DNA from: Planctomycetota bacterium
GTDB lineage: Bacteria > Planctomycetota > Phycisphaerae > UBA1845
Direction: 5' to 3'
Length of the DNA: 64,000 nucleotides
Assembly: GCA_029558835.1 (NCBI GenBank)
Contig: JAKQDH010000066.1
Span: forward strand, 1 to 64,000
Below are positions 28,289-49,949 of the stretch, piece by piece. Each line of letters begins with the position of its first letter. Positions within the stretch are counted from its first letter, which is position 1. The notes under the pieces are model-generated. The model was not told where the DNA came from and made no database searches. It was given only the letters and a program-made list of their open reading frames with translations. A program made the translations under genes and the position numbers.

Positions 28289-29318
28289 CGCGTCACCTCA
28301 CCGCCCGCATCATAACACACCCGCCCTCGTTGTTGCGTCCTGCTTCGGGCGCCCGAGCGGAAGCGACCGGACACTCCGACGGGGTGGCATGGCCAAGCGC
28401 AGCGCCGCCATGCTCTGCGGGCGCCGTCCGAGCCCGAGCGGCAGCGAGTGGGCACTTCGATGGGGTGGCATGGCCAAGCGCAGCGCCGCCATGCTCTGCG
28501 GCGACCGCACATCCGACCCGGACCGGCACCGAGCTGGCACCGTTCCTCACGCACGTCCCGGGCCGTCGTCGCGGGTCTCTCGTGTTGCACGCGCCTCCCA
28601 GTCCACGTCCACCGCCGCCTCGAACCGTCCCGCTATATAACGCGCCTAGCGCTCGCCGACTGCCACAGACCCCGCCCCGGGGCGTCGAGAAAAGCCGGCC
28701 GTTACAGTGCGACTGAACCCGGGCTGCCGGTCGCTGGGCCCGGTGGGTGCATCTTGGCGCCACCAGGGCGTCCATCTCACTGAAGATGTGGTTTCAGCAG
28801 ACGTGGTGTGCCCACGTGCACTGGGCACCGCACGGCGGGCCGCTGCTCGGTGGCGCGGTGGCGGCTCGTCGCCGCTCGCGCGTGCGGAGTACTCCCGCCG
28901 CGAGATTGGCAGCGACCCCGGTCCGACACTGCTCGGGCTGGAGACAGCCCGGACCGGTGGGGTCGACAACGTCGCGGCGACTCATCATCGGCATCTTCCC
29001 GACAAGTCGGTGCCAACGATGGCCTTCGCTGTGCGGCCGGCGCGCCGTCCGGCGGGTGCGGACCAGCGCGGCCCGCTGCCGCTTACACACGTAGGGTGTA
29101 GGCGGGACGGTTGGATGCGTGCCGCTCGACCACACGTATGACCACATGACCATCTCCACAGTTCGTTGGGGGGCTTGCGGCCGACCGCGCGGCGCGGTAG
29201 CCTTCACACAACGGTCGGGGGTTGCCGCGGTGTCGGGGGAAACGAACGCGCAGGCGCCGGCTTGTCACATCGACTCAGAATCGGGTATGCGGCGTCTGCC
29301 TCTATGCGGGAGTCACGC
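28289..29318. other. intergenic region upstream of the CHAT protein, with tandem repeats
   Basis: About 1 kb with no gene supported. It carries the 81-bp tandem repeat at 28353-28503. Past 28690 many small frames overlap on both strands, and the sequence is again GC-rich without motif. The promoter of the CHAT gene should be in the last part. Confidence 0.5.
28353..28503. repeat. 81-bp tandem repeat containing repeat family A arms
   Basis: Two copies of about 81 bp each contain GGTGGCATGGCCAAGCGCAG followed by CGCCGCCATGC (28383-28413 and 28464-28494). This arm is the inverse complement of the right arm of family A at 21289-21320 and 50234-50263. The rest of the unit, GAGCGG(A/C)AGCGA..., is less conserved. 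Confidence 0.75.
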
Positions 29319-32300
29319 GTGCACGCAATCCTACATGTCACCGGTGGATTCCTGGAGTTACACTGCGCCGAAGCCAACTTGAGCGGAGGGCGCCGTGAGC
29401 TGACGCCAGCGCGAGCGGCTGCCGTGCAGGCGCTGGCGGATCGGTATGAGAGGCTCATCGACAGCCGCCCGGGCGGCCCGGCAGTAACTCTGCAAGTCGA
29501 TCTTGAGCGGGCCGCGTTGCTCGAGATCGGCATCGAGCTATTCGCCTGGCTTGACGGCGACGAGGCTTGGCTGCACACGCTGCTCAAAAGCGCGCTGTCG
29601 CCCCTGATCCTCGAAATCCGCAGCGACCTTCGTCCGGAAGGCGCCGCCATGGACGTGCTGCGGGCGCCCTGGGAACTGCTGGCCTTGCCCAAGGGCGTTC
29701 TTCCGGGTCGCGAGGGCTTTCTCGCCGGAGACGTAACGCTCTGCTACGCCCCGTTCCGCTGCCTCGGTGATCCTCTCACGCCCTCGGAGCTGGATGACTA
29801 TCGCCTGGGCGTCGTCTTCATGGCCTCCGCGCCTCGCGGCCCCCGCGAGTTGGACTTCGAGGCAGAGGAGATGGCCATTCTGCGGGCCACCGGCCCGACC
29901 TCCGATCTCGACCTGTTTGGTAGAGGATTCGGGTGACCCGCGGCAACTGGGGAAGGTCATCGCCAGGCTGGCGCAAAAGCCCCCCGTTCTGCACCTGTCC
30001 TGCCATGGGCTTGCCGACAAGCCGCCGGTGCTGCTCATGGAGGACAGCCACGGGGCGCCGCTGCCCGTCAGCGCCACCGACCTGGTTCGGGCGCTCGAGC
30101 CGTATCGCGCCCATTTCACGTTTCTCTCCGCCTGTCTGAGTGCCGCGACGAGTCGCGCCAAGGACGGAGCATCGCCCGACGCCGGCGACTCGGGCCGGAA
30201 TCAGCTTGTAGCGCATTCGCTTGCGACCTCAATGGTCAGCGCGGGCTTTCCCACGGTGCTTGGCTGGGGCGGATCGGTGGCGGATTCCGCGGCAACCCGG
30301 TTCGCGCAGGAGCTCTATGAACGGCTGGCAAGGAGCATGTCCACCCCCGAAGCCGTCGCCAGTGCCCGCGATTGCCTGGTGAATGCGCCAGACGACGTTG
30401 TGGCCGGCGTGGGGGACAAGGACACGCCGGATGACCTCGCGCGCCGGCTCGCCGGCGGGCCGCTGCTGCGGCGCGACTGGCACCTGCCGCGGCTGTGGGT
30501 CGGCCCGCACGGCGGTGGACCGGTGGTGAAGCAGGGCGCGCGGAGGAAGCGCTCGATGCTGCCGCCGGATCACGCCCAGAAGAAGCTGCTGGCCGTGAAG
30601 GAGGGCGAGCGCCTGGAGGTGGCTGATCCGGCGGAATTCGTTGGCCGCCGACGGGAACTTCAGACGGCGCTGTCGATCCTCGGCGGCGGGGAACACGCCG
30701 GGCTGCTGATTCACGGCATGGGCCGGCTGGGTAAGTCGAGCCTAGCGGCCAGGATCAGCAATCGGCTGCCGGACTTCGCGCTCGCCGTCGTGTTCAAGCA
30801 CTACGATGCGCGAAGCATCCTCGAGGCGCTACAGGAGGCGCTCAGCGCAAACGAAGCCGCACAGGGCATTCTCAGACGCGCGATCGAGGAAGTCCGCGAC
30901 CACCCCAACACGTTCGAAGAGCATCTCATCCGACTCCTGGCCGGCCCCTGCAAGGACGCGGCGGATGGCAGGCCCGTGCTGCTGCTGATCGACGACCTGG
31001 AACGCGTGCTGGAAGACGACCCGGCCGGCGGACGGCACCGCGTCCGTGCCGACGTGCGCGAGGCACTGGCGGCTGTGCTCCGGGCTTTCGACCCGGCGCG
31101 ATCGGACAGCCGGCTGTTGGTCACCAGCCGGTTCCCGTTCACGCTGTCACGGCACGACGTGGAGTTGGCAGACAAGCTGACCTCGATTCAGCTCGGCGCC
31201 TTTCACGAGGCGGCGCGCGAGAAGCTCAGCCTCCGGCAGGTTCAGGAAGCGCGGGGTCGCCTGCCGGGCGACCAGTTGAACGACCGCGTCAAGCTGCTGG
31301 CCCACGCACAGCTTTGCGCCAGAGGCAACCCGGGGCTTCAGGACCTACTGGGGCTGAAGATAGCACTGAACCCGGAGGTGCCGGCCAAGGTTACGCAGCG
31401 TTTGCTGGAACAGGTGGAGACCTTCCTGAACCGGGGCGATCTACCGCCGGATGAGCGCGTCCGGGGCTTCCTGGAGAACCTGGCCGTGGATAGCCTGATC
31501 CAGCTCGCCGGCGATGACAACCGCCGGCTTCTGCGCGCCGCGACCGTTTTCGAACTCCCGGTCCCCGCCGGGGCGTTTGCCGGGCTGTCCGACAAGTTCG
31601 GCGGCCGCCTGCCGCGGCTGCAAGACCTGGGGCTGGTCGAGCCGTATGACGACCCGGTCGGTCCGAACCAAACCGCCTGGGCCGTGAACCGGTTCGCCGC
31701 CGGACGGCTTCCGCAGCTCTCGAAAAAGGAGCAATCGCGCGCCGCCGCCTCCGCGGTGAATGCCGTGTTCGCGGATTGGGGAGGTGCCGCCGGCAGAATG
31801 CGTCGCCCGTTCACCGCGGACCTCGAACTCGTCCGGCTGGCGCTGCTGGCGGGTAACGGCAAGGTGGTCCAGGCCTGCGGGGCAGATGCAGCGTTCGGGC
31901 TGGAACGCCGCGGTCAGCCGAAGGCCGCGGCGGGCTTGGCGGTGGCGTGCATCGAGCTTCTCGAAGAACTCGGCCTCATGGTCCCGATCGAGCTGCGGGC
32001 GCGGGCCGCGACCAACCTCGCCACAAGCGGCGACGGTGGCGTGGCCGACGAGCACTTCGCGAAAGGCGCTGCGGCGCTGGAGCAACCAGAGCACGCCGCC
32101 CACGCCGGAGGGCTGGATGTCTTTCTCTTCGAACTCGGCAAGCGCCAGCATCGGGCAGGCAAGCTCGAGGACGCACTGGCGACATTCCAACGCTTCGCCG
32201 TCGTGGTGGGCGACCGTCCCCGCGAAGCCGCGATCGCCAAGGGCCAGATTGCGGACATCCTCCAGGCCCGCGGGCAGCTCGACGAGGCGCTGCGCATCCG

Positions 32301-33174
32301 GCGGGAGGAGCAGCTTCCGGTCTACGAGCGTCTGGGCGACGTGCGGTCGATCGCGGTGGCGAAGGGCAAGATTGCGGACATCCTCCAGGCCCGCGGGCAG
32401 CTCGACGAGGCGCTGCGCAGTTGGCAAGAGGAGGTGATTCCGGCCCTGGAGCGTCTGGGTGACGTGCGGTCGATCGCGGTGGCGAAGGGCAAGATTGCGG
32501 ACATCCTCGAGGCCCGCGGGCAGCTCGACGAGGCGCTGCGCATCCGGCGGGAGGAGGAGCTTCCGGTCTACGAGCGTCTGGGCGACGTGCAGTTGATCGC
32601 GGTGACGAAGGGCCAGATTGCGGACATCCTCCAGGCCCGCGGGCAGCTCGACGAGGCGCTGCGCAGTTGGCAAGAGGAGGTGATTCCGGCCCTGGAGCGT
32701 CTGGGCGATGTGCGGTCGATCGCGGCGGCCAAGGGCAAGATTGCGAACATCCTTTTGGCACAGGGGGACACGGCGAAGGCACGTCGGCTACATGAGGAAA
32801 GGCTGGAGACGAATCGCGCTCTTCAAGACGCCGATGGCATCGCTTCGACTCTCTGGGCGCTGGCGCAACTTGATTTGCAGGACGAGCATTATGAGGCCGC
32901 GGCGCCGCGAGTAGCATTGGCCTACGCGATTGTTGAACACATGGAACGCGCACAAGGCATCGCGGCGATCGGCCCCGTGTTCGCCCAGTTCCTGGCCGCA
33001 GGCGGGCATACGTCGAAGGCGATTGAGGTTCTCCAGCGCAGCCGTGCGGCTGCCGAGCTTCTGGGGATGAATGACCTGCTTTCCCATATCGACGAGCTCG
33101 CTAAGCTGATCCAGCCCCGACGAAAGGACCCAGACTCCGGCGACGACCAGGCAAGCCCCGCGCCGACTCAGTGA
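29319..33174 (+). CDS. CHAT protease-STAND ATPase-TPR protein, split by a one-base frameshift
   Basis: The product would be about 1284 residues. It has an N-terminal CHAT (caspase-like) domain, then a STAND/NB-ARC ATPase, then TPRs. In the first frame (29319-29936) CHAT begins with HAILHVTGGFLELH and ends in a stop right after DLDLFGRGFG. Dropping one G at 29919/29920 continues in the next frame as LFVEDSGDPRQL with HLSCHG (His at 30004-30006) and FLSACLSA (Cys at 30133-30135), the intact CHAT dyad. The ATPase has HGMGRLGKSS (Walker A, about residue 466), LLLIDDLER (Walker B, about 554) and LLVTSRFPF. TPRs fill about 920-1260. GTG 29319 has GGGAG 6 bases upstream. Frameshift could be real decay or a sequencing error. 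The next gene starts 8 bases downstream. Confidence 0.82.
32236..32850 (+). repeat. five 123-bp units coding near-identical TPRs
   Basis: Units at 32236, 32359, 32482, 32605 and 32728 each code 41 residues starting AKG(K/Q)IADIL. They alternate two types: units 1 and 3 have RIRREE(Q/E)LPVYERLGDV, while units 2 and 4 have RSWQEEVIPALERLGDV. Unit 5 is degenerate. Thus a 246-bp pair has been duplicated recently. Confidence 0.9.
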
Positions 33175-33767: not shown

Positions 33768-34003
33768 GCAAGAACACCCTGCCCGTGGTTGATCGCACCT
33801 ACGCGTTGCTCAAGTGGTACCTGGGCAGACTGGAGAAGTTCCCGCGCTCGCATCGCTACGGGCTCGGGCAGCGCATTGAAGGCACGTTGTACGGGCTATT
33901 CGAGGGGTTGGTTCGAGCCTGCTATGCGTCAGCGGGCGCCAAGGCTCCGGAGCTTACCGAAGTCAACCTCAAGCTGGAGATCCTCCGGATGCACACGAGG
34001 TTG
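33764..34003 (+). pseudogene. avd: truncated DGR accessory variability determinant (Avd)
   Basis: Avd forms a four-helix pentamer that binds the DGR reverse transcriptase and template RNA. The 80 codons read [20 protein letters not shown], then GRLEKFPRSHRYGLGQRIEG, LYGLFEGLVRACYA and NLKLEILRMHTRL, matching the first two-thirds of Avd (the FPRSHR motif is characteristic). Family members are about 115-130 residues. At 34003/34004 the sequence changes abruptly into the antisense of a kinase gene fragment, so helix 4 is lost and the frame runs on to 34441 by chance. The gene is therefore most likely dead. Confidence 0.85.
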
Positions 34004-34222
34004 CCCGCCCTTTCCGAGCAATCGCTGGATGACGTAAGGCCCGATCTTCTCGGAAAGTGGAACCGTGGCCGGCTCCGGAGCGCTCTCCACAGTCTCGATC
34101 CCCGCTCGAATCTCCGCCGCCTTCGCCCGACACTGCGGGCAAGTGGCCAGGTGCTCCTCGAGTTCGGGAGCATCGCGGTCGATCCAGCTCCAAAGCTGCT
34201 CCTTCGAGACCTTGCAGGACAT
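34004..34222 (-). pseudogene. 5' stub of a zinc-finger Ser/Thr kinase gene
   Basis: From ATG 34222 the minus strand reads 73 codons: MSCKVSKEQLWSWIDRD, an anti-sigma-like zinc finger (HLATCPQC), a linker, and the start of a Hanks-type kinase (EKIGPYVIQRLLGKGG). The glycine loop stops exactly at 34004, where avd sequence begins. A ribosome-like GAGGG lies about 10 bases upstream. The sigma factor at 34480 is divergent from it. In planctomycetes such zf-kinase genes often accompany ECF sigma factors, so this is likely the remnant of a sigma/kinase pair. Confidence 0.8.
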
Positions 34223-34479
34223 GACCGATCCCTCTGCAACTCCGGGGGCCAGAAGGGCGCCAACAGCGCCCAGCCATTGTCTGCTGTGCCTGCCGCCCGT
34301 GAAGCAACCGTTAGGTTCTGGAAAGCCGCGCACACCCTCAGCAGGTCGGAGCCGGCCAGGCGTGAAGCGGCACTGAACGCCGGCGACAGGCGGCCCCTTG
34401 CACACGTCGATGTAGGGCAGTTCAATATCGCACACAGGTGAGCGCGCCCCGTCCACCCGGAACCTTCGGGAGTACCACA

Positions 34480-35103
34480 GTGGCGTCTGTGAAGGACGAC
34501 CTCCTGATGCAAGCCATCGATGGTGACGCCGAAGCGCTGGCCGCCGTCCTGCGCCGAGAAGCGCCGGCCGTGCGGCAGCAGCTTGCCGGTCAGATCCCGG
34601 CCCGCTGGCAGTCCGTGCTCTCCGTCGACGACGTCATGCAGGAGACGTACGTCGACGCGTTCCTCGACATCGCCCGTTTTGAGCCGCAACAAGAAAGCTC
34701 GCTCACCGCCTGGCTGGTGTGCATCGCCAAACGCAATCTGCTCGACGCCATCCGCATGCTGGACACCGAGAAACGCGGCGGCAACTGGCACCGGCTCGAC
34801 CCGCCGGCCGGCGACGACTCATTCCTGGCCCTGTTCGAGCATCTCGGCGGCAGCGGGAGCACCCCCAGCAGGACCGCAGCCAGAGCGGAGGCGCGGAGCA
34901 TGCTGGGCCACGCCTTAGCCCAACTGCCACCGGCGTACCGCCAAGTTGTGGAGACGTACGACCTGGAAGGGCGGCCCGTAGAGGAAGTCGCCCAGAAGCT
35001 GAAACGCACCCCCGGGGCGGTTTACATGCTGCGGGCACGGGCTCATCGCCGGCTGGCGGAGCTCTTGGGGACGGCCTCCCAGTTTCTGACGAAATCGACG
35101 TGA
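34480..35103 (+). CDS. ECF-type RNA polymerase sigma factor
   Basis: A 207-residue sigma-70 family protein with region 2 (DDLLMQAIDGDAEALAAVL... through VDDVMQETYVDAFLDIARFEP...LTAWLVCIAKRNLLDAIR) and region 4 (ALAQLPPAYRQVVETYDLEG, then RTPGAVYMLRARAHRRLAELL). It lacks regions 1.1 and 3. GTG 34480 is chosen for the GGGAG 7 bases upstream; the frame is open to GTG 34438. The large kinase gene starts 215 bases downstream on the same strand, with an inverted repeat between. That pairing is common in planctomycetes, where kinase and ECF sigma act in one signalling pathway. Confidence 0.9.
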   Translation: MASVKDDLLMQAIDGDAEALAAVLRREAPAVRQQLAGQIPARWQSVLSVDDVMQETYVDAFLDIARFEPQQESSLTAWLVCIAKRNLLDAIRMLDTEKRGGNWHRLDPPAGDDSFLALFEHLGGSGSTPSRTAARAEARSMLGHALAQLPPAYRQVVETYDLEGRPVEEVAQKLKRTPGAVYMLRARAHRRLAELLGTASQFLTKST

Positions 35104-35318: not shown

Positions 35319-38300
35319 ATGAGCGGTGAGCCGGACAGTGGGGCGCACAGCGACGCCGAGCAGAAGATGATCGAGGCGGCGCAGCGGGAGGCGGCGGAGG
35401 TGGCTGCGGCCGGGGGTCCTGCTCCACCGCTGCCGGCCGTACCCGGCTACAAGATCATCCGCGAGCTGGGCAAGGGCGGCATGGGGATCGTCTACGAGGC
35501 CCTCCAGGAGCAGCCCAAGCGCTCGGTGGCCTTGAAGGTGGTCCGCGGCGGGGCCTTCGTCGATGAGCATCGCCTGCGGCTCTTTCAACGCGAGATTCAG
35601 ACCCTCGCCCGCCTGAAGCACCCGGCCATCGCTGCCATCTACGAGGCCGGTCGCACCCAGGATGGCCAGCACTTCTTCGCCATGGAGCTGATCCGGGGCA
35701 CGCCGCTGACCCAGTATGCCGGGCAGCATCAACTGGACCTCGCCGCTCGCCTGGAGCTGTTCCGCCGGATTTGCCAGGGCGTCAACTATGCTCACCAGCG
35801 CGGCGTGATTCATCGGGACCTGAAGCCCTCCAACATCCTGGTCGACAGCGATGGCAACCCGAAAATCCTGGACTTCGGGCTGGCCCGCATCACCGATGCG
35901 GACGTGGCCGTCACCACGACGATGACGGCCGTCGGCAACGTCATCGGGACGCTGGCCTACATGAGTCCCGAGCAGGCCCGGGGCAACCCCGACGAGATCG
36001 ACGTGCGCAGCGACGTCTACTCGCTGGGCGTCATTCTCTACGAGTTGACCACTGGGCAACTGCCCTACGACCTCAATCGTCTGATGTTGCACGAGGCCGT
36101 GCGCGTGATCTCCGAGGACGTGCCGCACCGGCCCAGCACGATCAACCGCATTCTGCGCGGGGACGTCGAGACGATCGCGCTGAAAGCGCTGGAGAAGGAG
36201 CCGTCGCGGCGCTACGCGCACGCGGCCGCGTTGGCGGAAGACGTTGAGCGCTATCTGACCGGCCGAGCGATCCTGGCCCATCCGCCCAGCGCCCTCTACC
36301 AGTTCCGCAAGCTGGCCGCCCGTTACAAGCTGCCGCTGGCCTTTGCCGTGACGGTCTTCGTGCTGGTGACAGTCTTCGCCGTGGTAGCCACCGTGCAGGG
36401 TGTGCGCATCGCCGAGCACCGCGATCGGATCATCGAGCAGCAAGGGCAGATCCTCACCGAACGCGACCGCGCGGTCGCAGCAGGGCAGGAAGCCCAGCGC
36501 GAGCGTGATCGAGCTCTGGCCGCTGAGACAGCGGCCCGCGACGCGCAGGAAGCTGAGGTCGGGCAACGCCGGCTCGCCGAACAAAGGACCCGCGAAACCG
36601 AAGAGCACGCCGAGAACCTCCGGCGGAGCTTGTACGCCAACCGGATTGCGCTCGCGCAGATGGCGTGTGAGCGCGAGGACACGAAACGGGCGAAGGAACT
36701 CCTGGCCCAATGTCCGGACGACCTGCGCGGCTGGGAATGGTACCATCTGCTGTACGTGGCCGATCGAAGCCAGCGTACTTTCTACCTCGACGAGCAGGCT
36801 TCGACCATGGCGGCAAGCGCCGACGGAACGCAGATCGCCGTTGTCACCAGGGGTAACGATGTCAAGATACTTGACGGGATCACGGGGGAGACGCTGCGCG
36901 TCTTCAAAGGGCAGGCAGGGCAGTTGCATTCGATCGCTTTCAGTCCCGACGGCAAGAGCCTCGCCGTGGGCGGGAACGAAGTGGCACTCAAGGTGTGGGA
37001 CACACTAACGGGGCGCGAGCAATTGAGCGTCCGCGGCAAAGATCTCTGGTGGTATGCCCAGTGCCTGCTGCTCAGTTTCTCTGGCGATGGTCGCCAGCTC
37101 ATTGGCGTCTGGGCTTGCGGCCCGGAGCCAGGACCGATGAGGCGACTACTTAAGGTCTGGGACTTGCCCACGAACCAGGAGCTGGAACACTTGCTGGATG
37201 ACCGCGCCGCGTTCCAAGATGTGTTGTCAGGTCTCGACCACAGACAGCCACTCGCGCACCGCGACAATAAGCTGTTTGTGATTCGGACCGAACCGAATGA
37301 GCGCATGGCGACAACCCCCGACGACATCCTGGTCGAGAGGATCGTGTTGACCTGCAGCGGGAATCGCTTCATGCAGACATTTCCATATGACCCTGTGGAT
37401 AATGAGGAATACCCAATACAGGATGCGCGAACCGGAGAGGAATCGACACGTCTTGTCACCCCTGGCACAATGACGGCTGCGGCTTTCTCGCCAGACGACA
37501 CTCGAGTTGCCACAGGTAGCCGTGATGGCAGCATACACGTCTGGGACGCGAGCACGGGCCAGGAGTTGCATACACTGCGTGGACATTTGGGGACTGTCCG
37601 GGCTTTGGCATTCGGCCAGAACGGGACAAAAGTTACTTCGCTTGCTACGGACAAAACAATTAAGGTGTGGGAAACTGAGCATGCCCCCAAGTTGGACATC
37701 CACGGTTCCAGGGGCTACGGTGGATTCGCGCTAAGTCCGGATGGTGTGCACTTAGTGCTGCGGGAACCTGTCACCAACGCGATGACAATCTGGGATACGG
37801 TATTGAACTGCGAAGTCACAACGTTGTCGGGATGCCCGGCGACGGCATCGCCCCTTGAACGCGGCGCGATCAGCTTGAGCTCTGGCTCGCTGGCGTATTA
37901 CCTTCCCTGCGAACGTGCCGCGTGGAGTCCCGATGGCCGATGGATTGCCGCGTCTGACGCTGAGGCCGGCACGACATGCCTATGGGATGCACGGTCCCAT
38001 CAGGAAGTCGCCGTACTCGGCTTCGGGGCCGACTTCTTGGGCTTCGACCAGCGTGGCCGCGTGCTAGCCCTGGCTTCGCGCGCGCGTCGTGAGACCACCT
38101 TCGCCGACGGCTCGAAGAGTATCGTGGTTGGTTCACCGCGCGATCCAGAGGTGCGCACAGTATACCCCGCGGATCCGTCTGCCTCTCAGGAGCCGTCGAC
38201 AACCGAATCACCCGCCGTGATCCGCATTTGGGACATTACGTCCGCGCAAGTGATTTCATCCGTGCCGTGTCCCGCCGAGATCCGGTCTTTCGCTTTGAGC

Positions 38301-40184
38301 CCCGACGGGCGGGACGTCGCATGGGCGAGCGGTCCGTGCATAGAGGTCTGCGACGCAAGCAGCGGTGAAACACTTCTGTCCCGGACGGGTGATCAGACAA
38401 TGCTCGCTGTTGCTTTTGTCGGAGGCGGCGATGTGATCATGGGCGTCGGTTCAGACGGGACTATCGCAACCTGGAGCGCGGCCACAGGAGAAGCCCTAGC
38501 TACTCTTGACAGGCATTTGCCGGCGCTCGGCGATTCATATGTTGCAATCAGCCCGGACGGGAAGCGGGTTGCCTGTGGAAGACGACGTGGTGAAGGTGGA
38601 ATCCGTCTCTATGAAGTGACCAGTGGGCTTGAGCTTCTGACCCTTGAAAAAGGTGATTTCTTCGCGGCGGGGCTGACCTTCGGGCCAAGTGGGAATCAAC
38701 TGCTGTCCGTTGGGTGCGGCTGCACACGCGTGTGGCAAGCAGCAACGACGCGGCAAGCTGCAGCCTTCATGCGCTGGGCTGACGCCAAACAGCGCCGTCC
38801 GGAAATCAAACAGGGCGCGCAGGACGTAGTTGACGCCGCATTTCGCCACGTGGACACGGTGGACGAAGCGATTCACTACATACAGAGCGATGACTCGCTG
38901 AGCGACTCTGTGCGCGAACGCGCCCTGCTGCTAACCCAGGATCACTCTCACGAAATGGAAGAGACCAACGACAGCGTCTGGTTGGAACTCTCAGGTGGCG
39001 AGCGGAGCAGATGGACGCCCAGTCTCCCGCAAGGGTCGCCTTTGCGGGAAGAGCGTCCTCGGGTAATGGCTGACTTCGAACCGCAGTTGGACGCAGCTCT
39101 AAGCCTCTGCCGTTTCGATCCGAAAAGCGGGGTATATCGTAGAACGCTGGGCGTCGCTCAGTACCGCGTGGGCAGATACGCGGATACCTTGTCCACGTTG
39201 ATTCGTGCAGACGAAATCAACTCTGCAAACGGCGACAGGTACCCGGCGGATGTCGCCTTTCTGGCGATGGCGCATTATCGCCTCGGGCACCTTGAGCAAG
39301 CCCAGGCGGAGCTTGAGCAGTTGCGTCAGCTTATGCAGGACCCGAAGTACGCCCAGGATGAGGAGGCGCAGGGGTTCCTCAAGGAAGCGGAAGACTTGAT
39401 CGGCACCGCCGGGTGGCGGGGTTACGGGCAGCGCTACGCCATCATCGTGATGGGCGGGCACGCTCCTGCGGACACCAAGCATTACGGCTGGTACTGGAAC
39501 GACACCTTCGGCATGTACGAGGAACTGAAGGCGCGCGGGTTCAGCGACGAGAACATCTACTTCCTCTCGTATGGACCGAAGGCCGCGGAGCATCCCGAGG
39601 CCGTGGACGCCGAGAGTACGACGGAGAACATCCGGGCCGCCTACCGCTGGGCACGCGAGAAGTGCACCGCGGACGATCTGCTGTACGTCTACTGGGTCGA
39701 TCACGGCGGGGCGAATGACTTCCAGACCTATGACGGCAACATCACGCACGCGGAGCTGGGCGAGCTAACGAAGGCGATCACGGCCCGGCAGATCATCGGG
39801 GCCTACAACCCGTGCTTCAGCGGCGCGGTGATCGACGATCTCTCGCGCGAGGGCGTCATTACGATCACCTCGCAGGATGCCACGCACGGCAACTCCTGGG
39901 GCTGGGCCGGCCAGTGGCGGGAGGCGCTGCGGGGTGGCACAGCCGACGACCGTAGTGATACTAACGGCGACGGCCATATCTCCATGACGGAAGCCTACGC
40001 GTGGGTCGCCGCGAAATCCCAGGCCGCCGGCGAGCACTCGTTGATGGACGACAACGGCGACGGCCTGGGCAGCGAATGGCAGACGCCGGCGTTCGACCCC
40101 CAGGACCCGGCCAAGGACGGCTCCCGCGGCAAGTCGTACTCCCTCGACGGCTGGTTCCAGCCTCCCGATTCTCAAAGTCACTAA
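35319..40184 (+). CDS. Ser/Thr kinase-WD40 protein with C-terminal caspase-like protease domain
   Basis: A 1621-residue membrane protein. Residues 43-310 form a complete Hanks kinase: GKGGMGIVYE, VALK (K73), HRDLKPSN (about 164-171), DFGLA (about 184-188) and an APE-like SPEQ. A single TM segment (about 340-362, LPLAFAVTVFVLVTVFAVVA) is followed by a coiled coil (about 370-460), then WD40-type repeats to about 1140 (VWDTLTGRE, IHVWDASTGQELHTLRGH and others). A short TPR-like part (about 1250-1350) precedes a domain that starts RYAIIVMGGHAP (about 1371). It carries VYWVDHGG (His 1462) and IGAYNPCFSG (Cys 1499), the dyad of C13/C14-type cysteine proteases, and ends with EF-hand-like DTNGDGHIS and DDNGDGLG. 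ATG 35319 has GGAGG 6 bases upstream. Confidence 0.9.
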   Translation: MSGEPDSGAHSDAEQKMIEAAQREAAEVAAAGGPAPPLPAVPGYKIIRELGKGGMGIVYEALQEQPKRSVALKVVRGGAFVDEHRLRLFQREIQTLARLKHPAIAAIYEAGRTQDGQHFFAMELIRGTPLTQYAGQHQLDLAARLELFRRICQGVNYAHQRGVIHRDLKPSNILVDSDGNPKILDFGLARITDADVAVTTTMTAVGNVIGTLAYMSPEQARGNPDEIDVRSDVYSLGVILYELTTGQLPYDLNRLMLHEAVRVISEDVPHRPSTINRILRGDVETIALKALEKEPSRRYAHAAALAEDVERYLTGRAILAHPPSALYQFRKLAARYKLPLAFAVTVFVLVTVFAVVATVQGVRIAEHRDRIIEQQGQILTERDRAVAAGQEAQRERDRALAAETAARDAQEAEVGQRRLAEQRTRETEEHAENLRRSLYANRIALAQMACEREDTKRAKELLAQCPDDLRGWEWYHLLYVADRSQRTFYLDEQASTMAASADGTQIAVVTRGNDVKILDGITGETLRVFKGQAGQLHSIAFSPDGKSLAVGGNEVALKVWDTLTGREQLSVRGKDLWWYAQCLLLSFSGDGRQLIGVWACGPEPGPMRRLLKVWDLPTNQELEHLLDDRAAFQDVLSGLDHRQPLAHRDNKLFVIRTEPNERMATTPDDILVERIVLTCSGNRFMQTFPYDPVDNEEYPIQDARTGEESTRLVTPGTMTAAAFSPDDTRVATGSRDGSIHVWDASTGQELHTLRGHLGTVRALAFGQNGTKVTSLATDKTIKVWETEHAPKLDIHGSRGYGGFALSPDGVHLVLREPVTNAMTIWDTVLNCEVTTLSGCPATASPLERGAISLSSGSLAYYLPCERAAWSPDGRWIAASDAEAGTTCLWDARSHQEVAVLGFGADFLGFDQRGRVLALASRARRETTFADGSKSIVVGSPRDPEVRTVYPADPSASQEPSTTESPAVIRIWDITSAQVISSVPCPAEIRSFALSPDGRDVAWASGPCIEVCDASSGETLLSRTGDQTMLAVAFVGGGDVIMGVGSDGTIATWSAATGEALATLDRHLPALGDSYVAISPDGKRVACGRRRGEGGIRLYEVTSGLELLTLEKGDFFAAGLTFGPSGNQLLSVGCGCTRVWQAATTRQAAAFMRWADAKQRRPEIKQGAQDVVDAAFRHVDTVDEAIHYIQSDDSLSDSVRERALLLTQDHSHEMEETNDSVWLELSGGERSRWTPSLPQGSPLREERPRVMADFEPQLDAALSLCRFDPKSGVYRRTLGVAQYRVGRYADTLSTLIRADEINSANGDRYPADVAFLAMAHYRLGHLEQAQAELEQLRQLMQDPKYAQDEEAQGFLKEAEDLIGTAGWRGYGQRYAIIVMGGHAPADTKHYGWYWNDTFGMYEELKARGFSDENIYFLSYGPKAAEHPEAVDAESTTENIRAAYRWAREKCTADDLLYVYWVDHGGANDFQTYDGNITHAELGELTKAITARQIIGAYNPCFSGAVIDDLSREGVITITSQDATHGNSWGWAGQWREALRGGTADDRSDTNGDGHISMTEAYAWVAAKSQAAGEHSLMDDNGDGLGSEWQTPAFDPQDPAKDGSRGKSYSLDGWFQPPDSQSH

Positions 40185-40935: not shown

Positions 40936-42390
40936 ATGTACACATCTCCCCAAAATACTCACGTGTCGTATAGGTTGCTGTCCGGTTGGGTCTTCTTCGG
41001 ATTCCTTGCCGCAACGAACGCCGGGGCGGGCAGAATTCCCGGCACGCCGGCGTACCATGCGCCATCGGATGTGAGTGCGGGCGAGGCCCTTGGCGTGCTG
41101 GCCCAGGACTGTGACTGGTTGCCGGGCGAGAGCGTGGGGACCAATGCGCCTGCATGCGCTGTCACTACGTGGGACCCCGATGGGCCCGGGCCGCAGGCCG
41201 AACTGCTTGTTGTCGGGGGGGACTTCACAGTTGCGGGCGACATCTTCGCAAACAAGATCGCGGCGTGGGACGGCAGCGCCTGGCACCCACTGGGGTCGGG
41301 TATGAGCGGTGCTGACTACCCGCGGGTGTACGCCCTGACAGCCTACAACGGCGAGCTGATCGCGGGGGGCCTGTTCACGACCGCTGGCGGCGTCACGTGC
41401 AACTACATTGCCCGCTGGAACGGCAGTGCGTGGCAGCCGCTGGGGTCCGGGATGAACAACGCCGTATGCGCCTTGGTGGTCTGCAACGGCGAACTGACTG
41501 CAGGGGGCTACTTCACGACCGCCGGCGGCGTGACGTGCAACAGGATCGCCCGCTGGAATGGCGGTGCGTGGCAGCCGCTGGGGTCGGGGATGAACAGCGG
41601 GGTGTACGCCCTGACGGTCTACAATGGCGAGCTCATCGCCGGGGGCAATTTCACGACCGCCGGCGGCGTCACGTGCAACTACATTGCCCGCTGGAACGGC
41701 AGCGCCTGGGAGCCACTGGGGTCAGGGATTGCCGGTGCTAACCCACACGTATCCGCGCTGTCGGTCTACAATGGCGAGCTGATCGTGGGCGGCGGGTTCT
41801 CGACCGCCGGCGGCGAGCAGTGCAGGATGATCGCTCGTTGGAACGGCAGCGCCTGGCAGCCAGTGGGGGGGGAAATGAACGACCACGTGCTTGCCCTGAC
41901 CGTCTACAACGGCGAGTTGATCGCGGGGGGCGTGTTCGGGAACGCCGGCGGCGTCACGTGCAGCAGAATTGCCCGCTGGAACGGCGGCGCCTGGCAGCCG
42001 CTGGGGTTGGGCATGAACAACTGGGTACTGGACCTGACGGTGCACAACGGCGAGCTCATCGCCGGGGGCTACTTCACGACCGCCGGCGGGTACGTCTCGT
42101 GCTACTGGGCGCGCTGGGCTTGCGATGTCACGTGCGACCTCGACGCCGACGGCGACGTGGACGAAGACGACTTCTGGATTCTCGTCAGCGCGTTCGGCAC
42201 CTGCACGGGCGAACCCGGCTTCCTCTTTGAGGCTGACTTCGACGGCGACGGCTGCATCACTCTCTTCGACTATGGCCGCTGGCTGCAGTGCTACGTCGAC
42301 ACCAACGGCCGGGACTTCGTCCCGCCGATTGTCCGCCCCGCGCAGGCGGTGCCTGTCGACACCGGTCGTGTTGCCGACAGAGATGATTAA
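40936..42390 (+). CDS. secreted 46-residue-repeat beta-propeller protein with dockerin-like tail
   Basis: A 484-residue exported protein. The N-terminus (MYTSPQNTHVSYRLLSGWVF...ATNAGAG) is the signal peptide and shares the cassette with the M14 protein. Six units of 46 residues (138 bp; repeat starts at about 41332, 41470, 41608, 41755, 41893 and 42031) read ALTVYNGELIAGGxFTTAG followed by GVTCNYIARWNGSAWQPLGS, a Kelch-like blade pattern. The tail (CDLDADGDVDEDDFWILVSA and ADFDGDGCITLFDYGRWLQC) is dockerin-like. GGAGGACTCCCG precedes the ATG. Function unknown; probably exported cell-surface or matrix protein. Confidence 0.85.
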   Translation: MYTSPQNTHVSYRLLSGWVFFGFLAATNAGAGRIPGTPAYHAPSDVSAGEALGVLAQDCDWLPGESVGTNAPACAVTTWDPDGPGPQAELLVVGGDFTVAGDIFANKIAAWDGSAWHPLGSGMSGADYPRVYALTAYNGELIAGGLFTTAGGVTCNYIARWNGSAWQPLGSGMNNAVCALVVCNGELTAGGYFTTAGGVTCNRIARWNGGAWQPLGSGMNSGVYALTVYNGELIAGGNFTTAGGVTCNYIARWNGSAWEPLGSGIAGANPHVSALSVYNGELIVGGGFSTAGGEQCRMIARWNGSAWQPVGGEMNDHVLALTVYNGELIAGGVFGNAGGVTCSRIARWNGGAWQPLGLGMNNWVLDLTVHNGELIAGGYFTTAGGYVSCYWARWACDVTCDLDADGDVDEDDFWILVSAFGTCTGEPGFLFEADFDGDGCITLFDYGRWLQCYVDTNGRDFVPPIVRPAQAVPVDTGRVADRDD

Positions 42391-42693: not shown

Positions 42694-45600
42694 ATGTGCA
42701 CATCTCTCCACAAGACACACGTGTCATGTTGGTCGGTGTTAGTTTGGGTTTCCTTCGGGTTCTTCGTTACAGCGAACGCCAGCACGGGCGGGATCCCCGG
42801 CACGCCGGTGTACCACGCACCATCGGATGTGGGTGTGGGCGAGGGCTCTACCGTGCTGGCCCAGGATTGTGACTGGTTGCCGGCCAAGGGCACGCCGGGG
42901 ACCAACGGGTACGTCTATGCGACTACTACATCGGACCCCGATAGCCCGGGACCGCAGCCGGAGCGGCTGGTAACCGGGGCTCCGGCGTACGGCGCCGCCA
43001 AGCTGCTCACGCCGACTCACCCGGTGGGCTACGAGGGCTACCAGTTGGTTCGCATCGAGGTGGCTGGCGAGGCGCAACTCCAGACGCTGCTGGCGCTCGA
43101 TGCTGCGGCGCGCGACCTGGAGATCTGGTCGGAGGTGGTCCGCGTCGGGCCGGTGGAAGCTCGCGTCTCGCCCGCTCACCGTCGGGCCCTGGAGGCCGCC
43201 GGCTTGCGCTACGAGGTTCTGATCGAAGACCTGCAAGAGCACTACAACACCATTTACGGCGTGGGAGGACCTGAGAGTCGCGGCTTCTTCGATGTCTACC
43301 GAACGTACGACGAGCACGTCGCCTTCCTGAATAACCTGGCAGCTACGTACCCAAACCTAGCCCAGATGGTCAACATCGGCACGTCGGTCCAGGGGCGCAC
43401 GATGTGGGCGATTCGGATCACAGGCCCAGGTGAGAACAAGCCCGGTGCCATGTATCACGGCGCGCAGCACGGCAACGAGATCATGGGCGCCTGCGTGGTC
43501 GCCTATGCCGCCGAGTACCTCCTGACGCAGTATGGGCAGATCCCCGAGATCACGGAGCTGGTGGACGAGGTCGAGTGGTATCTGCTGCCGATCATGAACC
43601 CCGACGGGTACGTCCAGGGTAACCGCTACAATGCCAACGGGTACGACCTGAACCGCAACTGGGGCGGTCCCGGCTGCTACCCCAATCCGTTCTCGCAGCC
43701 GGAAACCGCCGCCATGCGCGATTTCTTCCTCGCGCACCCGAATGTGCGGGCCTACATTGACTTCCACAGTGCCGGCTACATGATCATGTGGCCTTGGGGG
43801 TACACTTCCGCCTGGTGTCCGGACCACTGGACTTTCAACGACATAGCCCAGGAACTGCGCGCGCGCATCCTGGTCGTGCGCGGTACGGACTATGGCCACC
43901 TGGGACCGATCTACAGCACCATCTACCCCGTCCAGGGCGGATCGGTCGACTACACCTACGGCGTGCACGGAATCTGCGCGCTGACCTTCGAGCTGGGCTA
44001 CGCCCATCTTATGCCCCCTGACGAGATCCTCCCGACGTGCCAGGAAATCTTCCCCGCGATGATCTACCTCGCCGCCTGGCTTCCCGCCTGGGTTCAGGAC
44101 TGCAACGGCAACGGGGTCCACGACCCGTTCGATATCGCCTGGGGAAGCAGCCTCGACTGTAACGAGAACGGGATACCTGACGAGTGCGATCTGGCCGAGG
44201 GGAGCAGTCCGGATACAGACGGCAACGGCGTCCCGGACGAGTGTGAGGTTGTACGTCTGTACGTGGACGCCCAGGCCACGGGGGCGGGCCATGGGCTGGA
44301 CTGGGAGAACGCTTGCCCGCAGTTGCGTCGCGCTCTGGCAATGGCCAGTCACCTGGGTAACCTCGTCGCGGAGATCTGGGTGGCGGAAGGCACCTATCGC
44401 CCTGGGACGGCCCGCGATGCCTCATTTCGCTTAACCAGCGGCGTGGGCCTGTACGGCGGGTTCGCCGGCGGTGAGCAGGAGCTTAGCCAACGAGATCCCT
44501 ACGCGCACCCGACGGTTCTTTCCGGTGACCTCCTCGAAAATGACGCACCCAACGATAGTGATTGCTGCCGGCCGCATTATGGCCCCGGATGTCACGACGA
44601 CGCTTGCGAGGCCTTGGTCTGCGCCGAGGACCCCTCCTGCTGTTCCGACTACTGGGGCAGGTGGTGCGAAGAACTGGCCTTTGAGCTCTGCGACGGCGTC
44701 TGCGGTGGGCTTGAGGACAACGCTCTAACGGTTGTGATGGCGGCCAACTGTGACGAGACCACGGTACTCGATGGGTTCGTTGTCACCGCGGGGTATGGTT
44801 GCGACGAGGACGGCGATTCGTACTACACCCCGGGACTGCGCATCGCCGGATCCGCGCCAACATGGTCCAGCAGCCTTCTTGTGGCCAACTGCACCTTCAC
44901 GAAGAACCGCAGTTCGTGCCCTGCGGTGGCGATTGTCAGTGGCACGACGATGTCTCCTAGTTCCTTCACCCATTGCGCCTTCACGCTGAATGGAGGAGCA
45001 CCGACGTCCTCGGATCGTCGCGGCGGAGGCGCGCTCGGGGCGCGTCCGCTCGCCTGCAGCGTAGTCGTTAACAACTGCATCTTCACTGGGAACTGGGGAA
45101 TTGCCTCGCCCTACAGCCCCATCTTTTGCGGTGATGGGCGACCGGTGCACCTGCGTGCTGATGCTGTTCTTGCCAACTGCACGCTCGTCCACAACTGCAC
45201 TTTCCCACCGAATCCAGGAGACGAGGCGAGGGGAGGAGCAGGACTGTCGTATGTCGGTGGCCCCATCACCAACTGCATTCTCTGGGGGAACCGCGATTCC
45301 GTCGGTACTGACGAGACGGCGCAAATCCGCGATATGCAGCCAAACTACTCCTGCGTCCAGGGCTGGACGGGTAACCTCGGTGGCGTCGGGAACTTCGGGG
45401 ATGATCCGCTCTTTGTGAACGCGCTGGGCCCTGACGGTGTGGCCGGTTCGCCCGATGATGACGTGCATCTGCTCCCGCTGTCACCCTGCATCGACACGGG
45501 TGACCCGACGTACGACTTCAGCCTCGAGCCCGAGCCCGACGGCGGGCGCATCAACATCGGCGCCTACGGCAACACGCCGGAGGCCGCCACGCGCGGCTGG

Positions 45601-45897
45601 CTGTACATCGAAGACTACGCCCTGGTCGCGCAGCGCCGGGTCGGCCGGACTACGTTCGAGTATGAGATGTCGGTGATTCTGAGCAATCGCAGCGATCGGG
45701 ACGCCCCCAACGTGATCCTCGAGCTGCTGGCCGTGCCGGAGGACGTGACCATCATCAGCGGCGCCGAGCTCACCGTCGCCCCGGTGGCTGCCGGCGCGAC
45801 CGTCACCAGCGTTACGAACTTCGTCATCCAGGTGGACCGCACCACGCCGGTCTCGCCGTTGGGCTTCAGTTGGCGCGTAGTGCAGATGGGAGATTGA
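42694..45897 (+). CDS. M14-family zinc carboxypeptidase with Cys-rich and beta-helix regions
   Basis: A 1067-residue exported protein. The first 60 residues (MCTSLHKTHVSCW...GIPGTPVYHAPSDVGVG) share the N-terminal cassette. The M14 catalytic domain covers about residues 205-465: HGAQHGNE (H259, E262), DLNRNW (Arg 321), FHSAG (H358) and TFELGY (E433), which are the zinc ligands and the substrate/catalytic residues. The next segment has thrombospondin-3-like DCNGNGVHD and DCNENGIPDECD loops. The remainder (about 530-1000) is a beta-helix-like region (VVNNCIFTGN, VANCTFTKN) with an inserted Cys-rich block (about 625-670). It probably trims extracellular peptides and binds carbohydrate. Confidence 0.9.
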   Translation: MCTSLHKTHVSCWSVLVWVSFGFFVTANASTGGIPGTPVYHAPSDVGVGEGSTVLAQDCDWLPAKGTPGTNGYVYATTTSDPDSPGPQPERLVTGAPAYGAAKLLTPTHPVGYEGYQLVRIEVAGEAQLQTLLALDAAARDLEIWSEVVRVGPVEARVSPAHRRALEAAGLRYEVLIEDLQEHYNTIYGVGGPESRGFFDVYRTYDEHVAFLNNLAATYPNLAQMVNIGTSVQGRTMWAIRITGPGENKPGAMYHGAQHGNEIMGACVVAYAAEYLLTQYGQIPEITELVDEVEWYLLPIMNPDGYVQGNRYNANGYDLNRNWGGPGCYPNPFSQPETAAMRDFFLAHPNVRAYIDFHSAGYMIMWPWGYTSAWCPDHWTFNDIAQELRARILVVRGTDYGHLGPIYSTIYPVQGGSVDYTYGVHGICALTFELGYAHLMPPDEILPTCQEIFPAMIYLAAWLPAWVQDCNGNGVHDPFDIAWGSSLDCNENGIPDECDLAEGSSPDTDGNGVPDECEVVRLYVDAQATGAGHGLDWENACPQLRRALAMASHLGNLVAEIWVAEGTYRPGTARDASFRLTSGVGLYGGFAGGEQELSQRDPYAHPTVLSGDLLENDAPNDSDCCRPHYGPGCHDDACEALVCAEDPSCCSDYWGRWCEELAFELCDGVCGGLEDNALTVVMAANCDETTVLDGFVVTAGYGCDEDGDSYYTPGLRIAGSAPTWSSSLLVANCTFTKNRSSCPAVAIVSGTTMSPSSFTHCAFTLNGGAPTSSDRRGGGALGARPLACSVVVNNCIFTGNWGIASPYSPIFCGDGRPVHLRADAVLANCTLVHNCTFPPNPGDEARGGAGLSYVGGPITNCILWGNRDSVGTDETAQIRDMQPNYSCVQGWTGNLGGVGNFGDDPLFVNALGPDGVAGSPDDDVHLLPLSPCIDTGDPTYDFSLEPEPDGGRINIGAYGNTPEAATRGWLYIEDYALVAQRRVGRTTFEYEMSVILSNRSDRDAPNVILELLAVPEDVTIISGAELTVAPVAAGATVTSVTNFVIQVDRTTPVSPLGFSWRVVQMGD

Positions 45898-46739: not shown

Positions 46740-49700
46740 CTACTTGGATGCGGCGTTGCCGCGGTTGCCTTGGGGGCCCACCGGCAGCAGTCGGGCGGCG
46801 TCGGTGACGGCGTCGATCTTGGCGGCGTAGCTGCTGCGTTGGGCGATGTCCTCGTCCGTGACCAGGTGCACGTCCAGCAGGCCGGCGGTACGGGCGCCGG
46901 TGCGCAGGTAGTTCATCTCGCTGAGGCAGAGGCTCCAACCCTCGAACCACTGCAGCAGCGCGGCCCGCTGCGCCTCGGTGCCGCGGAAGTGCACCAGCAG
47001 GTCGATGTCGCTGGCAGGGCCGGCCGTGGCGTTCTTGGTGCTGCCGAAGACGTACAACGCCACGACGCCGAAACGGGACGGCTCCAACTGCTCGGCCACG
47101 CGCTCCGCCATGCGCATCCGCCAGCGCCAATGGTCCTCCGGCTCGGTGCCCGCGTACGGGCGTCCGTCGGTAGCGGGCCTGGACGTGGAGGCCGGATCAG
47201 CCAGGATGCCCACGGCCTCCTCGAGATCAGCGTTCATCAACACCCGCAGAACCTTGCCCCGGGTCACCCGCGGCACGTCGATGACGCGCACGCAGTTCTC
47301 CAGGGCCGCGTATTCCGGCGCCACGCTGGAGAGCACGTTCGGCGATTGCGTCAGGAACTGGTGGTTGAAGATGATGCCTTCGTCGTCGGGATAGAGCGGC
47401 AGATAGCGAATGGACGCCTCCACCAGGTCCTGGAAGAAGTGCGTGCCGAAGGAAAGATCAGGAACGTAGTTGCCTTTCTTGCGCGCGATCTCAATGAGGA
47501 CGGCCGTGTTGTTGATGTCCGAGTAGGTCACTTTGACGCCGAGCTTCACGTCGCCGCGGCTGCCCCAGCGGCCCGGTCCCATGAGCACGAACTGGTGCTT
47601 GGGCAGCACGGCGTTGAGCTTGCCAACCGCCCGCCCGACGGCCACCAGGCCTTGCAGGTCGGCGATTTCGGCGTAGGCATCGGGATCGATGTAGACGATG
47701 TGGGTCACATCGGGCACCCGGCCGTTGGAGACATAGCGGTTAGCCGAGAAGATGATCTGTTCCCTGGACAGGTCCCGGGGAATGGCGGCCGGCATGGCCT
47801 GGGTGGTGTGGCTCTGGGCCCGGCATTGCAGGAGATACAGGTACTTGCCGTCGGAGGCAAACTCAATGTCCACCGGCGTGCCGAGACCGTCCTCGAGGGC
47901 CTGCAGCAGCGCGTGAATCTGCTTGATGAACGGGGTGCGTTGCACCAACCCGTTGCAGGTCACCACGACGTCGCGGGGGTCGCATTCGAGGTGCCCCCCG
48001 ACGGGCTCGCGGATGATGTCGCGGTCACACACGGAGACCAGTTGCCCGAGACCGGGCAGTTGGTGCCCGCCCTGGCGCAGGAAGTCGGTGACGGAAATCG
48101 TCTCAAAGGCGTTGTTATCGAGGTTGATGACGTCCAGTTGGGTCGGGGCATAGCGGATGACCTCATCAACGGTGACATTGACGCGCAGGCCCGGCTGCCC
48201 GGGGGCCAGCAGGATCGGATAATCGTCCGAGAGGCGGTCCACGGCCCGGGTGCCCAGGCCCGGTACGATCCGCACCAGCCCGTCCTCGCGTTTGATGCGC
48301 GGGGACCAGCGGAACTCGTTGTGGCTGAAGGCCACGCCCGCGAAGGTCGGCAGGTAGTACTTGCCCACCCGTGTGCCGACCACCTCCTGGACCATGATGC
48401 CCATGCCTTCCTGGAAATCGAGGAGGTTGCGCTCGGCCCGGTATTCGATCGGGTCGGGGCTGAAGGTGGAGGCATAGACCTCGGCAATGGCGTCAAGGAG
48501 GGCGTTGAGGCGTTCCTGCTTGGAGCCCTGGTTGGCCAGGAAGAGGCTCTTGTACTTGCCGGAGAAAGCCGCCCCGATGCGGTCCTCCAGCAGGCTCGAG
48601 CTGCGCACGATCAGCGGCACCGTGCCGAACTCATCCATCGCCACCGAGAGCCCCTTGGCAATCTCCGGGGAGAACTGGGAGTGCTTGAACACCTGGATGA
48701 TGTGGGGGTATTCCTGGCGGACCTGGTTGATCTCCTTGTACTTCTGGGTGAAGACGTCCTCGAGGTTGTTGCGGTGGACGAAGTCGTGCAGGCCGTCGGA
48801 GGTGATGTACCAGCTCTGCGGCGTCCGCACCGCGGCGAACAGCTCGGCGTGCTCCTTTGACCGCCGAATGACCTGCTCCGCCAGGAACAGCCCCGAGCTC
48901 TTACCGCCGAGCTTGCCATATCCTCGCGCCGGGCAGATCAGGCGATGCAATAAGTCGTGGAAGCTCTCGATGGACACGTACTGCTTGGCGACGTTGATGT
49001 AGTCGAGTTGATCGGTCAGGAAGCGTCGGATCAGGGAGACGGCCAACCCCTTCAGGGTGGAAAGCGGCAGCTCGACCTCGCCGGGGGCGGTGTGGTGGAA
49101 GCGGGTCAGGGCGTCGCCGATTTCCACGAGCGAGGCATACGGCGTCTCCAGCGTGGTGACGAGGAAGCCCGCCCGGTCCTCCCGGATCCAGCGCTGGATG
49201 CAGGTGACGATCTCGCGGTTGCTGAGGTGCTGCGCGGCGATGCGAAACGTCTCTTCCACGAGGTTGGCCGAGGCGGGAAACTGCCCCTTGCGTCGGGGGC
49301 GGTTGCTTTCCATCTGGACCTGCTCGTCGCCGGTCTGCCCGCCGGCGCCGAAGCGGGCGAGCAGCGCCTGGGCCTCGCTCACCCCGCTCCAGCCCAGGTG
49401 GTTGAGCATCTTGCGGGTGACGCGGAGCAACAGACTCTGGTCGCTGTGCCGCAGCAGGTCGAGGATGACGCGCCACTCGCCGGTGCGCGACTTGGCCAGT
49501 TCCTCGCGGGCCGCCCGCCAGTCCTCCAGGGCGTCGACCAACACGCGGTGGACGATGAAGCTGCTGACCCGATCGGCGATCGTAATGATGAGCTTGCGTT
49601 CTTCCTTCAGGAACGGCCCTTCGTCGGCGTTGGGCATCTGCTGGGTGTAGAAGAGTTCGATCGAACCCACGCGGTCGCCCTGCACCACCACGTCGGCCGC

Positions 49701-49949
49701 CAGGACCCAGGGAGACTCCTCAAAGCGCGGCGAGGTGAACACTGAATCCCAGAGCTTGATGCGCACCTGGGCGATGTCCGGGTATTGCACGCCGGCCGGC
49801 AGCGCCGCGATGATCTTGGGAATGATGTCCTCCGCCGTTGCGTCCGGGCTGCTGACCAGCTTCTCGATCTCGTACAGGCAGTTGAGCTCCTTGGCCCGCT
49901 CGAGCAGGTCCGCGAGGATGTTCTCAATGGGTTTGCTCAGGTCGGTCAT
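46740..49949 (-). CDS. PEP/pyruvate-binding (PPDK-N) protein with GAF-like N-terminus and nucleotidyltransferase C-terminus
   Basis: A 1069-residue cytoplasmic protein. Residues about 10-150 form a GAF-like region. Residues about 340-700 resemble the ATP-grasp/PEP-binding domain of pyruvate, phosphate dikinase (LGGKSSGLFLAEQVI, VRSSSLLEDRIGAAFSGKYK, GIMVQEVVG). The phosphohistidine and TIM-barrel domains are missing, so it is not a full PEP synthase. Residues about 900-1060 have VVALYVFGSTKNATAG and SDIDLLVHF, the GSxxxG/DxD motif of minimal nucleotidyltransferases. Start ATG 49949. It shares this layout partly with the paralogue at 50286-52061. Function unknown; the fusion hints at regulatory nucleotidylation or PEP signalling. 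Confidence 0.85.
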   Translation of the reverse strand: MTDLSKPIENILADLLERAKELNCLYEIEKLVSSPDATAEDIIPKIIAALPAGVQYPDIAQVRIKLWDSVFTSPRFEESPWVLAADVVVQGDRVGSIELFYTQQMPNADEGPFLKEERKLIITIADRVSSFIVHRVLVDALEDWRAAREELAKSRTGEWRVILDLLRHSDQSLLLRVTRKMLNHLGWSGVSEAQALLARFGAGGQTGDEQVQMESNRPRRKGQFPASANLVEETFRIAAQHLSNREIVTCIQRWIREDRAGFLVTTLETPYASLVEIGDALTRFHHTAPGEVELPLSTLKGLAVSLIRRFLTDQLDYINVAKQYVSIESFHDLLHRLICPARGYGKLGGKSSGLFLAEQVIRRSKEHAELFAAVRTPQSWYITSDGLHDFVHRNNLEDVFTQKYKEINQVRQEYPHIIQVFKHSQFSPEIAKGLSVAMDEFGTVPLIVRSSSLLEDRIGAAFSGKYKSLFLANQGSKQERLNALLDAIAEVYASTFSPDPIEYRAERNLLDFQEGMGIMVQEVVGTRVGKYYLPTFAGVAFSHNEFRWSPRIKREDGLVRIVPGLGTRAVDRLSDDYPILLAPGQPGLRVNVTVDEVIRYAPTQLDVINLDNNAFETISVTDFLRQGGHQLPGLGQLVSVCDRDIIREPVGGHLECDPRDVVVTCNGLVQRTPFIKQIHALLQALEDGLGTPVDIEFASDGKYLYLLQCRAQSHTTQAMPAAIPRDLSREQIIFSANRYVSNGRVPDVTHIVYIDPDAYAEIADLQGLVAVGRAVGKLNAVLPKHQFVLMGPGRWGSRGDVKLGVKVTYSDINNTAVLIEIARKKGNYVPDLSFGTHFFQDLVEASIRYLPLYPDDEGIIFNHQFLTQSPNVLSSVAPEYAALENCVRVIDVPRVTRGKVLRVLMNADLEEAVGILADPASTSRPATDGRPYAGTEPEDHWRWRMRMAERVAEQLEPSRFGVVALYVFGSTKNATAGPASDIDLLVHFRGTEAQRAALLQWFEGWSLCLSEMNYLRTGARTAGLLDVHLVTDEDIAQRSSYAAKIDAVTDAARLLPVGPQGNRGNAASK

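Follow-up and report, generated by a model that had tools for sequence, protein, structure and literature searches.

Planctomycetes carry very many transmembrane Ser/Thr kinases, the inputs of which are unknown. As described in the main text of a survey of these proteins (PMC11032199), such kinases can combine a kinase domain, one TM helix and a C-terminal region with WD40 and TPR-like parts, with a cytoplasmic location predicted for the kinase and a mostly periplasmic one for the WD40/TPR parts. Other enzyme-like periplasmic domains known on these kinases include the sulfatase-modifying-factor type and DUF1080, and the words "peptidase" and "caspase" are absent from the main text of the survey (PMC11032199). 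A caspase-like dyad and WD40 repeats occur together in a single chain in some prokaryotic metacaspases/orthocaspases (PMC3501461). On the side of the protease, the relevant group is peptidase family C13 (legumain, GPI8; PF01650).

Here we describe a protein of 1621 residues, encoded in the window (the whole stretch of 64,000 nucleotides analysed), in which parts of these systems are found in one chain. The protein resembles the surveyed planctomycete kinases in its kinase, its one TM helix and its WD40 and TPR-like region, but differs from those treated in the survey's main text by a C13-like peptidase after the TPR module. It shares a caspase-like dyad and WD40 repeats with those metacaspases/orthocaspases. 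A caspase-like dyad also occurs in six large proteins (L035-L040) from a 9.5-Mb genome of the phylum, G107, and WD40 repeats follow it in both of the two that were scanned with Pfam. In the G107 proteins, however, the dyad lies towards the N-terminus and a kinase motif is absent. Its likeness to family C13 lies in a profile match above cut-off, the His/Cys dyad and the fold, while an EF-hand-type loop within the domain and the fusion to a kinase set it apart.

Domain layout of the protein

The gene and its features are as follows:

34438..35103, +: ECF-type sigma factor gene, directly upstream (PF04542, PF08281, PF07638)
35319..40184, +: whole gene, 1621 aa (open frame, ATG start)
35448..36236, +: Hanks-type Ser/Thr kinase, residues 44-306, catalytic motifs intact (PF00069, E 2.2e-47; motifs)
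36330..36386, +: single TM helix, residues 338-356, preceded by a positive stretch, N-in (hydropathy peak 2.72)
36765..38828, +: WD40 repeat region, about residues 483-1170, limits approximate (PF00400, E 1.2e-26, and other beta-propeller models)
39066..39398, +: TPR-like module, residues 1250-1360 (relatives among planctomycete proteins)
39414..40154, +: C13 (legumain)-like peptidase domain, residues 1366-1612 (PF01650, 26.7 bits; predicted fold)
39702..39704, +: codon of the predicted catalytic His1462, in VYWVDHGG (4/4 family members; pairs with the metacaspase His-Gly)
39813..39815, +: codon of the predicted catalytic Cys1499, in NPCFSG (4/4 family members; pairs with the Ala of Yca1 C276A, 4f6p)
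39957..39992, +: EF-hand-type loop DTNGDGHISMTE, residues 1547-1558, inside the peptidase domain (shared with relatives)
40047..40064, +: second acidic loop DDNGDG, residues 1577-1582 (invariant in 4/4 family members)

The frame has no internal stops and matches Pfam models for kinase, WD40 and C13. The kinase domain retains the motifs GKGGMG, VALK, HRDLKPSN, DFG and SPEQ, and the intact kinase domain is followed by a single TM helix and then by WD40 and TPR-like parts, which is the layout of a receptor-type Hanks kinase. The initial annotation had read the protein as an intact Hanks kinase, a TM segment and WD40 repeats fused to a protease at an unusual C-terminus. This domain anatomy is right, with the addition of a TPR-like module between the WD40 region and the protease, and the combination is real and unusual. 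The PADLOC matches of the kinase are generic and were not counted as evidence for a role in defence.

The C-terminal peptidase domain

The last 264 residues alone match Peptidase_C13 (PF01650) at 26.7 bits against a curated cut-off of 22.8 bits (E 5e-6), in a partial alignment that spans profile positions 106-190 of 258. Each of the four proteins in the close subfamily matches the same profile at a reporting limit of E up to 10 (best 1.7e-7), and at that limit no match to C14 (PF00656) was reported for any of them. The domain had been annotated as a C13/C14-type protease; profile comparison thus upholds C13, above the cut-off though over part of the model, and does not uphold C14.

An AlphaFold model of the domain, built on three sequences, has a mean pLDDT of 56.8; the first 140 residues are mostly fair to good, and the pocket half, after about residue 141, is poor or weak. 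Legumains were the best matches of this model in a Foldseek search against the PDB (E 6.9e-7), with about 16% identity in the structural alignment, and a second structure aligner scored legumain and metacaspase 4 equally, at Z 14.5. A GPI transamidase subunit and peptide ligases were also among the fold matches of the model, weak as it is in the pocket half. At the level of sequence, a profile of the subfamily matches metacaspases weakly (best Yca1, E 0.012), and in this alignment the subfamily His-Gly and Cys pair with the metacaspase dyad, and the position aligned with the Cys reads Ala in the C276A mutant chain of Yca1 (4f6p). The residues are those originally proposed as the dyad, and the surroundings of both are unchanged across the four subfamily members. 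The fold matches, the C13 profile and the dyad alignment together place the region among caspase-like folds, and from sequence and model the domain has the appearance of an intact cysteine protease of the legumain type.

EF-hand-like loops had been placed after the protease. The loop DTNGDGHISMTE instead sits within the domain, 49 residues past the Cys motif, and comparable loops lie 45-63 residues past the Cys motif in four distant C13-like proteins (L021, L022, L090 and L096). The EF-hand-type loop belongs to this kind of peptidase domain and is not a module of its own.

Relatives and rarity of the fusion

The three closest copies of the peptidase domain are 59-67% identical to it over the whole domain, including the dyad and the acidic loops. 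Two of them, found in a single scan of genome contigs, come from one Candidatus Eisenbacteria MAG: L033 (67% identity, 388 aa) has an export-like N-terminus and a FlgD-like tail, and L034 (59% identity, 2503 aa) carries a beta-helix and other parts. The third, L099, is from a genome of the same order (67% identity, 631 aa); it starts with a hydrophobic segment and ends in a dockerin-like tail. By eye, all three begin with a hydrophobic, export-like stretch, and FlgD-like tails were called in two and the dockerin-like tail in one. A kinase is absent from all three; the domain is joined in them to FlgD-like, beta-helix or dockerin-like parts and never to a kinase. No relatives were found in viral contigs, and among plasmids the single match, partial and 27% identical, carries the annotation peptidase C13. 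The window's copy and L099 differ at third codon positions approximately 2.4-2.6 times as frequently as at first and second ones, and their dyad is the same; among the family members compared, the ratio is about 2. The excess of third-position differences and the unchanged dyad fit a domain that is still kept by selection.

The piece between the WD40 region and the peptidase domain, 111 residues long and TPR-like, has no paralogs in its own genome. Eleven other genomes of the phylum contain relatives of it, and in 11 of 11 the chain ends 3-51 residues past the match. A kinase motif is present in the same frame in three of the four TPR-sharing proteins that were examined over the full frame, and the fourth is without one. 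Because the 11 planctomycete proteins stop so soon after the module, the peptidase stands directly behind the normal ending of such proteins. As judged from sequence, a C13-like domain that is secreted elsewhere was probably added to the C-terminus of a planctomycete receptor-type kinase, just after its TPR module.

The same architecture was sought more widely. C13-profile matches were listed at 41 places in 392 genomes of the phylum and at 28 in 397 genomes of the class, and were sorted by frame length; frames longer than about 600 aa were read out, two G107 frames in part only. Across these roughly 790 sampled genomes no second kinase-C13 fusion emerged: none of the frames read out also holds a kinase motif, as judged with a regular expression that a degenerate kinase would escape. 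In the class genomes, the next longest frame with a C13 match has 807 residues. A search of 114 genomes of the order gave no full-length ortholog, and in its own genome the protein holds the single C13 match, with neither C14 proteins nor further C13 proteins found at the limits used. Searches covering open-licence papers found no C13-kinase fusion in the literature. Thus, the domain combination is new, while the kind of protein, a planctomycete receptor kinase, is already known.

Compartment, possible function and neighbourhood

Hydropathy marks only one strongly hydrophobic segment, residues 338-356, and it follows a positively charged stretch. Together with the predicted topology of similarly built kinases in the main text of the survey (PMC11032199), these charges make it most likely that the kinase lies inside and the WD40-TPR-protease part outside. 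The placement of the peptidase agrees with the secreted nature of its relatives, and, with the TM helix between them, the two catalytic domains most likely lie on opposite faces of the membrane. This bears on the initial proposal that the kinase/WD40 part drives proteolysis: such a mechanism within one compartment is unlikely, as the helix splits kinase from protease and the nearest relatives of the protease are secreted. A related scenario, at which the initial wording hints and in which kinase and WD40 sensor activate a cytoplasmic caspase-like protease to kill or remodel the cell, finds some parallel in caspase-fold proteins that do carry WD40 repeats, such as those of G107 and others described previously (PMC3501461). 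Yet an intervening TM helix, export-like N-termini on the closest protease relatives and WD40 parts that the survey's main text predicts to be periplasmic in such kinases (PMC11032199) all speak against it. With the kinase predicted inside and the protease outside, a cytoplasmic, death-type role is unlikely, and we regard an intracellular effector of this kind as quite improbable.

Two further explanations concern the domain and the junction. The protein could be a sensor kinase with an extra ectodomain, the caspase-like domain being silent or serving in binding or as a transpeptidase/ligase. Transpeptidase or ligase activity is found in some legumains and in the GPI transamidase subunit, and the presence of that subunit and of peptide ligases among the fold matches, along with the poorly modelled pocket half, would be compatible with such a module. 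The invariance of His, Cys and their surroundings in 4/4 subfamily members weighs against it, and we consider a non-proteolytic domain unlikely. Alternatively, the assembly may have fused a secreted C13 gene to a kinase-WD40-TPR gene: the genome sequence is a draft in 224 contigs, the junction is known from the assembly alone, the fusion was seen once only in the genomes searched, and GC3 is unequal between the WD40 part, where it falls as low as 0.53, and the C13 part, at 0.87. However, the junction is in frame, at a domain boundary and without a stop, within a contig of 159 kb. Moreover, the C13 part comes close in GC3 to the kinase part (0.81-0.91 by block) and not to the relatives' own genes (0.73-0.74). 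This makes a chimera with a foreign contig less likely, though it does not prove the junction itself. An assembly artefact is the least probable of the explanations considered.

We therefore favour, as reasonably probable on the sequence evidence, a single-pass receptor kinase with a grafted and putatively active C13-like envelope peptidase that may affect the state of the kinase. In such a protein, the peptidase would be active in the envelope, anchored to the membrane through the kinase, and the WD40-TPR region would bind a substrate or partner. Cleavage of the partner or self-cleavage, possibly calcium-dependent, could then alter the state of the kinase, which would signal inside, perhaps to the adjacent ECF sigma factor. 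The coupling of protease to kinase is the least certain step of this proposal. It is conceivable, if rather doubtful, that an extracytoplasmic caspase-clan protease sits on its own receptor kinase so that surface proteolysis is read directly or the ectodomain is released; we found no bacterial precedent for a single protein that would act in this way. A built-in outer enzyme of predictable chemistry would offer a concrete handle on the input of a kinase, and a secreted protease domain common to Planctomycetota and Eisenbacteria would have been recruited to a receptor.

The ECF sigma factor is encoded 215 bp upstream, in the same orientation. In this phylum, WD40 genes often have sigma-70 genes beside them (PMC5587647), which makes the sigma factor a plausible candidate output of the kinase. 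By adjacency only, it is a possible output partner. Beside it, a 175-aa frame (33929-34456, -) has a zf-HC2 zinc finger just below cut-off, followed by a kinase-like first strand and glycine loop (IGPYVIQRLLGKGG), and then ends; it may be a remnant of an anti-sigma/kinase gene.

Further upstream, a CHAT-AAA-TPR gene (29767-33174) stops 2.1 kb short of the kinase gene; about 9 kb separate its CHAT domain from the C13 domain, less than the 11 kb given initially. No link between the two was found beyond proximity, and presumably they have only the fold class in common. Across 29166-33174 (CHAT, AAA_16 and TPR), the alignment to the CHAT profile begins only at position 133 of 289. The N-terminal half of CHAT is either absent or contained in the overlapping frame before it, 29166-29936, which has no Pfam match; a frameshift or truncation is possible.

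On the other side of the kinase gene are a secreted-looking DUF5122 beta-propeller that also matches dockerin weakly (40936-42390) and a secreted-looking M14 zinc carboxypeptidase (42694-45897). These two neighbours resemble each other near the N-terminus (IPGTPxYHAPSDVxxGE...LAQDCDWLP), as if a leader region had been duplicated. Beyond them, two PPDK_N (ATP-binding) genes stand close together (46740-49949 and 50286-52061, -), one of them with a C-terminal nucleotidyltransferase domain.
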